64,000 bases of DNA from Natronoglycomyces albus (GTDB lineage: Bacteria > Actinomycetota > Actinomycetes > Mycobacteriales > Micromonosporaceae), in contig NZ_CP070496.1 of NCBI RefSeq assembly GCF_016925535.1, positions 186,001-250,000 of the forward strand. The letters are read 5' to 3'. The translations under genes and the position numbers were made by a program. Below are positions 12,978-15,892 of this stretch, piece by piece. The notes beneath the pieces were generated by a model. The model saw nothing but the letters and a program-made list of their open reading frames with translations, was not told the DNA's origin and did no database searches. The first letter of the stretch is position 1. Each line of letters opens with the position of its first letter.

Positions 12978-13029
12978 GTACCATTTTCAAGCGGTGCAGG
13001 GCATATCCTGCACGCGAAAAATTCAACAT

Positions 13030-13100
13030 CGGGTTGTGGCGCAGCTTGACAATGTTCAAGTTCGCTTCGCGACGGCACTTCGTTCGGGACGAAGGGGTCG
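13030..13100 (+). pseudogene. Broken copy of the adjacent tRNA-Pro
   Basis: The first 19 bases match the 5' end of the intact tRNA (CGGGTTGTGGCGCAGCTTG). After 26 unrelated bases replacing five D-loop bases, 26 bases match its anticodon arm (13075-13100, with CGTTCGGGACGAAG). The T-arm and acceptor 3' half are missing. The insert contains an imperfect palindrome (CTTGACAATGTTCAAG). It is a partial tandem duplication remnant that cannot fold as a tRNA. Confidence 0.8.
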
Positions 13101-13128
13101 GGGCCAGCCCAGATTTACAATTTCACAT

Positions 13129-13205
<77 letters not shown>

Positions 13206-14092: not shown

Positions 14093-14278
14093 TCAATTGT
14101 CGTTGCCCGAGATCACCTGGCGCCCACGATAAAGACCGCAGTGAACACAGGCGCGGTGTTGCGGAACCAGTTCCTTCCGTGGGCAAGGGCAGGGGGAGAG
14201 CGCAGGTGGCTGCGCCTTCCACTGAGACCGGCGGTGTCGGGTGCGGGAGCGAGATTTACGTCGTTTTGGTACAGCCAT
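14093..14278 (-). CDS. rpmF: 50S ribosomal protein L32 (Zur-type paralog)
   Basis: A 61-residue protein with the L32 signature MAVPKRRKSRSRTRHRRSQW at the N-terminus and HRACVHCGLYRGRQVI near the C-terminus. The first zinc-ribbon Cys pair reads CPC rather than CxxC, while the second (CVHC) is intact, so zinc binding may be altered. ATG 14278 lies 8 bp from a palindromic Zur-like box, suggesting a short or leaderless mRNA. Duplicate L32 genes are known Zur targets that spare zinc in actinobacteria. It appears intact amid pseudogenes. Confidence 0.85.
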   Translation of the reverse strand: MAVPKRRKSRSRTRHRRSQWKAQPPALSPCPCPRKELVPQHRACVHCGLYRGRQVISGNDN

Positions 14279-14280
14279 AT

Positions 14281-14310
14281 TGATAATGATAACGGTTATC
14301 AATATTGATA
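14281..14310 (-). promoter_or_regulatory. Zur/Fur-type operator upstream of rpmF
   Basis: A 15-bp palindrome TGATAAC-G-GTTATCA at 14287-14301 is flanked by further TGATAA half-sites (14281, 14305) and overlaps ATCAATATTGAT. It sits 8-22 bp from the rpmF start. The AT-rich TGATAAY-type dyad resembles Zur boxes of ribosomal-protein paralog genes. The regulator is inferred from the target gene. Confidence 0.6.
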
Positions 14311-14455
14311 ACGGCACCCCCCTTACGCGCCACCATCGCCCGCATCCTCACCCGCCAGGGCCGGACCAATCCCGAACCTAAAAAACGCCCCAAAGCCTCA
14401 CTGAAACGCTTCGAAGCCGATTTCCCCAACGGATGCTGGCAATCCGATCTACGGC
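14308..14455 (+). pseudogene. IS481-family transposase fragment
   Basis: About 49 codons match the middle of IS481-type DDE transposases: TIARILTRQGRTNPEPKKRP, followed by SLKRFEADFPNGCWQSD, which contains the first catalytic Asp region (FEA..PN..WQSD). Homology stops after QSDL and the start is missing. No inverted repeats remain. It is a dead fragment abutting the Zur-like box. Confidence 0.8.
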
Positions 14456-15377: not shown

Positions 15378-15557
15378 ATGACAGGGAAGGACCCACTGAG
15401 TCTGATCTTTGCGGCACTGGCCGACCCGACCCGCCGCGACATCCTCACCAGGCTGTCGCAGGCCCCGGCGACAGTCGGCGATGTCAGCAAACACTTCGAC
15501 ATCAGCGCACCCGCGATCTCCCAGCATGCCCCGGAAACGCCCTCTACAATTTCCTGA
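15378..15557 (+). pseudogene. Truncated copy of the ArsR regulator gene at 20901
   Basis: The first 52 codons are nearly identical, in DNA and protein, to the intact ArsR gene at 20901 (GKDPLSLIFAALADPTRRDI, then DVSKHFDISAPAISQH). The match runs through the ribosome-binding region and stops abruptly at about 15534; seven unrelated residues and a stop follow. The recognition helix is cut before its end, so it cannot work. The dyad upstream is only partly kept. Confidence 0.85.
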
Positions 15558-15574: not shown

Positions 15575-15892
15575 ATGGGTCTTCCCGGTCGAATTCCCCC
15601 AGGCCATGACCACGGAAATGGAGGTGACCCCTTTGCAAACTGGATGGAGCAACTCATCATGTCACTACCGACACTTCAGCAAGGAAGCACTGGGGCAGCC
15701 GTCCGCCGTGTGCAAGGACTGTGCGTCGCCCATGGTGGAACGGCCCGTCATGAAATCGAATCTACCGGTGGCATCGACAGGCATTTTGGCCCGGGAACTG
15801 ATCGTGCAGTTCGTGCCGTTCAGTCGGATGGCGCACCGACAGTCGATGGAATCGTAGGAAGAATCACCTGGACTAAGCTCACCACCGGATAG
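15575..15892 (+). pseudogene. Peptidoglycan-binding domain fragment
   Basis: The C-terminal 75 residues form a PG_binding_1 repeat: LPTLQQGSTGAAVRRVQGLC, then GGIDRHFGPGTDRAVRAVQS and PTVDGIVGRITWTKLTTG. The preceding 20 residues (DPFANWMEQLIM) look like the interior of a larger hydrolase, and protein-like text shifts frame further upstream. The gene seems to have lost its 5' part at the junction with the truncated ArsR copy 18 bp upstream. Confidence 0.65.

Follow-up and report, generated by a model that had tools for sequence, protein, structure and literature searches.

The window, the 64,000-nucleotide stretch of DNA analysed here, carries at positions 14093-14278 a second rpmF gene, which lies behind a predicted Zur-type operator and encodes a ribosomal protein bL32 with an altered zinc ribbon. 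The same ribbon is conserved in 56 genes of one bacterial family. We consider it probable that the gene encodes an L32 isoform derepressed through Zur, whose metal site has been rebuilt and retained, in contrast to the cysteine-free paralogs. By the usual logic, Zur-controlled ribosomal paralogs do without zinc, and a conserved set in which the metal site is kept and rebuilt would go against it.

The CPC-type rpmF gene and its genome setting

A preliminary description of this DNA placed an intact rpmF in the interval 14093-14310, which was found to consist of a minus-strand coding sequence and its operator. The protein scored 69.0 bits with PF01783 (cut-off 21.3) and 62.4 bits with TIGR01031 (cut-off 22.6), and is thus a bL32 by the curated cut-offs of both models. 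A possible GTG start lies upstream at 14317, and homology favours the ATG at 14278. The features of the locus are listed below; the 21-bp box, the 18-bp palindrome and the His beside the fourth Cys are additions to the preliminary description.

14093..14278, minus strand: rpmF paralog (bL32, CPC type), 61 aa, ATG at 14278, stop codon at 14093-14095, matching PF01783 and TIGR01031
14138..14149, minus strand: codons of C44-V45-H46-C47, the second pair with an added His; H46 is found in 56/56 CPC genes
14183..14191, minus strand: codons of C30-P31-C32, the altered first ribbon pair; both Cys are found in 56/56 CPC genes
14281..14301, no strand: predicted Zur-type operator TGATAACCGTTATCATTATCA (gene strand), 21 bp, at -23 to -3 relative to the ATG, made of two 15-bp motifs that overlap with an offset of 6 bp, 0 mismatches
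14286..14291, minus strand: -10-like TATCAT at -13 to -8, inside the 21-bp box
14295..14312, no strand: further perfect 18-bp palindrome GTTATCAATATTGATAAC, overlapping the 21-bp box

The ribbon reads C30-P-C32 followed by C44-V-H-C47, so the first pair is CPC as described before. This CxC pair separates the protein from the ordinary zinc ribbon (C+; CxxC or CxxxxC followed by CxxC), and its four retained cysteines separate it from the zinc-free (C-) paralogs that have lost them. It shares one trait with the C- paralogs, being a second gene beside an ordinary copy and behind a Zur-type operator. The ordinary rpmF (CSQC...CGVC, compared with CPC...CVHC in the window copy) was found elsewhere in the genome at C1:1074126, which rules out the window copy as the only rpmF. 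Its context is presumably the usual one, with a DUF177-like gene, rpmF and rnc (neighbours named by eye).

The window protein is 68-71% identical to eight CPC relatives. In six pairs that include the window gene, pS was 0.63-0.77 and pN 0.17-0.24, indicating purifying selection. The gene had been called live, and it looks live because a second rpmF was found and selection is purifying. An AlphaFold model of the CPC L32 (pLDDT 62.5, pTM 0.24) is too poor to judge the metal site.

The neighbourhood had been described as debris, which is fair: nine nearby ORFs were scanned, and six had no Pfam match, two were fragments and one, a metallophosphatase, looked whole. Near rpmF, positions 15378-15557 of the window hold part of an ArsR-type regulator and positions 15575-15892 part of a protein with a peptidoglycan-binding domain. 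The debris that bears rpmF starts directly after a tRNA-Pro (CGG) gene (13129-13205), the 5' part of which is partially repeated about 100 bp upstream (by eye; region 13027-13205). Together, the tRNA-Pro region and the debris have the look of an ancient island located at a tRNA gene. A plasmid search of the rpmF neighbourhood gave no match.

The predicted Zur-type operator

The palindrome TGATAACGGTTATCA at 14287-14301, 8 bp from the ATG, was confirmed as the preliminary description gave it. With up to three mismatches it matched three times in the window (two of these being the rpmF site itself, read on both strands), compared with 0.40 expected, and three matches were reached in 1 of 100 shuffles. 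Genome-wide, the pattern TGANAANNNTTNTCA was found at five places (two for the reversed control). The pattern TGAWAAYSRNNNYSRTTWTCA, with up to two mismatches, was found at 17 places in the 4.0-Mb genome and at none for the reversed control; two of its places had zero mismatches, the rpmF site among them. Both of these patterns were drawn up after the window rpmF site had been seen.

The 15-bp core TGATAACCGTTATCA is identical to the operator core between cg0042 and cg0043 of C. glutamicum, and 19 of 21 positions agree over the published 21-mer. Zn-dependent binding of Zur to that operator (band shift in vitro) and Zur-dependent expression are reported in the part of PMC2823685 that was available. 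This core identity and the 17 places against none in the reversed control rule out a chance palindrome. The Zur-like box of the preliminary description therefore stands: its core is that of a band-shifted Zur site, and the genome encodes a Zur homologue. Judged by its sequence, the palindrome before the window rpmF is a Zur-type operator, and two marks of a Zur regulon are present at the sequence level, a 21-bp actinobacterial operator at the promoter and an encoded Zur.

On the gene strand, the sequence leading into the start codon is ...GTTATCAATATTGATAACCGTTATCATTATCAAT-ATG. No Shine-Dalgarno sequence was seen between the box and the ATG, and a sigma-70 consensus scan at the window rpmF found no promoter. 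Since the -10-like TATCAT lies inside the box and no Shine-Dalgarno sequence was seen, the mRNA is probably leaderless. Leaderless starts are reported for Zur-controlled genes of C. glutamicum in the same available text (PMC2823685). The palindrome at 14295..14312 may offer room for a second Zur dimer.

Zur homologue and other predicted Zur sites in the genome

The Zur-like protein of the genome matched S. coelicolor Zur (2.1e-50) and M. tuberculosis FurB (5.9e-46), and proteins named Fur scored at most 79 bits. Its gene is adjoined by a ZnuB/AztB-like permease and by an ArsR-like ORF (the latter by eye). The second Fur-family gene of the genome is closest to PerR.

Another 15-bp palindrome was located before an rpmB-rpmG pair, divergent from an MRF-like COG0523 gene; MRF is the COG0523 protein of the mycobacterial zinc-starvation set. 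This rpmB encodes one Cys, compared with the usual four, and this rpmG encodes none. Further 15-bp palindromes were found where a FecCD transporter ORF begins and, in two cases, inside ORFs (L008, and L009 within a NUDIX ORF, as listed); these two are probably due to chance. The other zero-mismatch 21-bp box (L157 1501-1521, C1:3864763-3864783) is flanked by an ORF for a FecCD-type permease and one that looks like a helicase (both by eye). Together with the site L010 (FecCD plus Peripla_BP_2), this box suggests Zur-controlled uptake of a zinc-metallophore complex.

The CPC form is a conserved class within one family

To collect relatives, we used a profile of two CPC proteins on a 101-genome sample and then a profile of nine on 354 genomes of the family. 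The CPC form was found as 56 genes in 52 of the 354 genomes and in 10 of 44 genera. This tally started from 58 loci, of which four were repeats, and the remaining 54 were joined by L225 (MSVPKR start) and L233 (MAAPKR start). Scores in the 101-genome sample were bimodal, with 8 genomes at 104-141 bits and no further full-length match above 75.5 bits. The window's genome belongs to this family (f1), which has Glycomyces among its members and, as we infer, genera of the Micromonospora type. Among the CPC relatives that bear a name, Glycomyces salinus (L012) is the nearest.

C30, C32, H41, C44, H46, C47 and G48 are invariant in all 56 genes, and P31, R34 and E36 are each found in 55. The exceptions, all of them counted, are L228 with CAC, L234 with a fifth Cys, and L235 without the motif's R and E. 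First-pair spacing is variable in L32: the 91 ordinary L32s that we collected have CxxC (78) or CxxxxC (13). A His before the fourth Cys was found in one of these 91, from a Myxococcales MAG.

In an order sample of 397 genomes, 28 genomes passed E 1e-22, of which 14, from family f1, have the CPC form and 14 an ordinary L32 with CxxxxC. Six passed in a class sample of 394 genomes, two with the CPC form (the window's genome and another member of its family) and four with an ordinary L32. Thus, no CxC L32 from outside the family was found among the matches passing E 1e-22 in the two samples, a threshold below which divergent forms are missed. Among the 46 of 80 kept loci that were read, one (L012) had CPC, and CxC was absent from the three alignments read of 37 distinct PDB sequences matched.

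An ordinary L32 is also present in the seven CPC genomes that the 101-genome sample holds besides the window's, and in the genome of L012. One of these genomes (G022) has three L32 genes (L095, L186, L199), an ordinary, a CPC and a cysteine-free one. Four genomes have two CPC copies each (L125/L150, L127/L151, L209/L236 and L210/L237).

Zur-like boxes across the class

We scored the region within 90 bp upstream of rpmF for a box, with a maximum of 18. The box pattern was built from the window, L010, L011 and L012 sites, so that the window, L012 and own-genome sites are not independent tests; the 3' half of the box overlaps the -10 element, and part of the score may be promoter. The score was at least 14 (14-18) in 55 of the 56 CPC genes, L219 having 13, and it was 10-13 in 16/16 ordinary rpmF genes. 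Shuffled sequences gave mean scores of 11.1 for 21 CPC genes and 10.7 for the 16 ordinary genes. For each of these 21 CPC genes, its own score was reached by at most 4 of 100 shuffles; the ordinary gene L172, with a score of 13, was matched by 2 of 100.

As a positive control, the cysteine-free rpmF genes of family f33 scored 15-18 in 12 of 13 cases, and the thirteenth scored 10. Since S. lincolnensis (L196) falls within it, we took this family to be the Streptomycetaceae. The cysteine-free rpmF loci of other families scored 9-11 in 17/17 cases, and no box was seen in them.

Origin of the CPC form

To place the CPC form, we built a careful tree with the CPC columns left out. The CPC proteins grouped in a single clade (97/96), and so did, separately, the cysteine-free proteins (100/100). 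The tree used 55 columns; its rows were 30 of the 55 distinct CPC sequences, 49 ordinary L32s, from which L028 had been dropped for its long branch, and 26 of the 36 cysteine-free proteins. Its bootstrap was not quite settled, and the end branch of the window row was long (0.58). Joint ancestry of the CPC and cysteine-free types was neither shown nor rejected (p-AU 0.441). Quick trees were unstable: the CPC proteins were not on one side of a branch in the first (2 changes) and were on one side, with support 90, in the second. In a third quick tree, the likelihood was 46.6 higher when the CPC and C- types were constrained to group than in the free search. The printed cysteine-free rows have Val/Ile-x-Val (Thr-x-Val in L198) where the CPC form has Cys-Pro-Cys, with equal loop length. 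This likeness in the alignment fits a link between the two types without showing one.

The L32 paralog, the Zur-type operator and the altered ribbon of the preliminary description all held up, and its notion of a half-way form on the way to losing zinc did not. C30, C32, C44 and C47 in 56/56 genes and the single clade rule out an intermediate or decaying form. Because the clade keeps all four Cys and adds a second change of its own, the His of CxHC, the CPC ribbon looks like a maintained end state. Of the two suggestions made for it, that it binds zinc differently appears to be the better one.

Linkage with a COG0523 GTPase

A COG0523 GTPase gene with a P-loop directly follows the CPC rpmF in 46 of the 56 loci, and in all 46 a possible GTPase start codon overlaps the rpmF stop. 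The overlap is GTGA or ATGA in the 12 cases printed, most of which have further in-frame starts downstream. Two linked GTPases were scored and are ZigA-like with an intact P-loop; the ZigA model gave them 528 and 541 bits, below its cut-off of 600, and the MRF model 172 and 204 bits. The downstream gene of L222 and L234 is COG0523-like and lacks the P-loop motif.

No COG0523 gene directly follows rpmF in eight loci (window, L012, L232, L233, L235, L095, L150, L229), and the window copy is therefore not part of an rpmF(CPC)-COG0523 operon. For L229, a COG0523-like gene was found on the opposite strand at a distance of about 2.4 kb. The genome of L150 has two copies, and the other one, L125, is linked to the GTPase. 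No GTPase motif was found next to rpmF in the five Glycomyces-type loci (window, L012, L232, L233, L235); a ZigA-like gene lies elsewhere in the four Glycomyces-type genomes searched (469-490 bits). A methyltransferase-like gene follows the CPC rpmF in L012 (5259-6035), and a similar-looking gene follows the ZigA-like GTPase in L271, also Glycomyces-type (by eye), as if an old order rpmF-GTPase-methyltransferase had since been broken up.

In the window's genome, no ZigA-like gene was found, and the only COG0523 protein was the MRF-like one (190 bits). Since this genome has no ZigA-like protein and the Glycomyces-type loci are unlinked, loading by ZigA cannot be general. Nothing speaks more strongly against a general loading role than this missing ZigA-like partner.

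Proposed function and alternatives

The Zur-type operator and the second, ordinary copy point to a low-zinc isoform. When zinc is ample, Zn-loaded Zur would sit on the operator, cover the -10 region and keep rpmF silent. When zinc is low, Zur would leave and a probably leaderless mRNA would be made, so that the CPC isoform could replace or supplement ordinary L32 on new ribosomes. The isoform would keep its metal site as C-x-C...C-x-H-C, probably for zinc, with another geometry and another affinity or lability. Most carriers would produce it jointly with a COG0523 GTPase of the ZigA type, which may be its loader. The constant Cys and the new constant His suggest that the ribbon site is in use, most likely for metal, and we regard metal binding by the CPC L32 as reasonably likely. 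Zinc ribbons do not usually contain a CxC pair, which counts against this reading.

A further step, which we put forward only tentatively, is that zinc-regulated ribosomal proteins include, besides C+ and C-, a third kind represented by the CPC form. Zinc (or another metal) would be kept in CxC...CxHC and loaded during or just after translation by the coupled ZigA-type GTPase, and in these bacteria the zinc chaperone would treat the ribosome as a privileged client, where otherwise it would be stripped of zinc.

The observation that the cysteine-free L32 has the same Zur-type box raises the alternative that the CPC L32 is functionally zinc-free. The CxC would then no longer hold zinc in cells, the protein would free zinc by displacing ordinary L32, the same job as Streptomyces rpmF2, and the Cys would be kept for packing, a disulfide or history. 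The cysteine-free rows have mostly Val at the CxC positions, which may be strand positions needing only a hydrophobic residue. The two types may also be complementary, as no cysteine-free match was found in the three family genomes of the class sample, and matches to the N-terminal part only were found in 3 of 101 family genomes, the one read (G022) being cysteine-free. However, G022 carries both types, so there is no strict mutual exclusion. Moreover, four Cys and both His are kept in 56/56 genes, which is hard to explain without metal, and a CxC or CxxC pair was found in 0/36 of the cysteine-free proteins read (6 + 30), L251 having a single Cys. We thus consider a zinc-free function unlikely.

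The ribbon could also act as a switch, redox- or metal-labile, with a CxC/CxxC centre resembling the one in Hsp33; it would release zinc upon oxidation or extreme starvation and so tune the ribosome. Hsp33 is described, in the source text available, as binding one Zn through CxC and CxxC and losing it on oxidation. However, the likeness is one of motif, in a different protein, with the pairs spaced by 11 residues compared with 27-32 in Hsp33, and such a switch seems quite improbable. Finally, the box covers a -10-like hexamer, and a constitutive gene whose palindrome is just an AT-rich promoter would have this appearance. The core identity with a proven operator, the 17 places against none in the reversed control, and box scores of at least 14 in 55/56 CPC genes compared with 0/16 ordinary rpmF genes leave hardly any room for this explanation. 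Overall, the Zur-derepressed isoform with a rebuilt metal site is the reading that we carry forward.

Comparison with known systems

Zur control of L32 paralogs is already known in S. coelicolor and has been predicted for Salinispora. The gene rpmF2 belongs to the S. coelicolor Zur regulon and is listed for Enterococcus faecalis too, according to the available part of PMC6103462, and rpmF2 of S. coelicolor and relatives is called cysteine-less in that of PMC5472717. The CPC gene resembles S. coelicolor rpmF2 as an L32 paralog behind a Zur box. Unlike rpmF2-type proteins, in which the ribbon Cys are lost (36 proteins read), the CPC form keeps four Cys plus a His and forms a separate clade.

In two other Micromonosporaceae, Salinispora arenicola and S. 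tropica, a paralogous L32 gene was predicted to have Zur sites upstream (PMC3087516, in the text available). This paralog probably belongs to the same class as the CPC form; in that main text, as available, only C+ and C- forms are discussed and "CXC" occurs 0 times. We found no mention of a CxC form of L32, or of its coupling with a COG0523 gene, in the literature searched, which mostly excluded subscription papers. The zinc centre of Hsp33 is similar in having four Cys as CxC and CxxC, which hold one Zn there as far as the available source describes, but it belongs to an unrelated protein with a much longer spacing and serves as an analogy only.

In M. tuberculosis, the four zinc-starvation paralogs listed in the available text are S14, S18, L28 and L33, with no L32 paralog among them. 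The mycobacterial set is similar in combining Zur-controlled alternative ribosomal proteins with a COG0523 protein, and beside rpmB-rpmG the window's genome encodes an MRF-like protein (271 bits, with a cut-off of 375). Unlike mycobacterial MRF, the two CPC-linked GTPases are ZigA-like with an intact P-loop. A 2026 paper on S. aureus ZigA names candidates such as UvrA and states that a high-affinity client was not identified (PMC13339975). The tight coupling of rpmF with the COG0523 gene would offer a candidate client for a chaperone family with few known clients.
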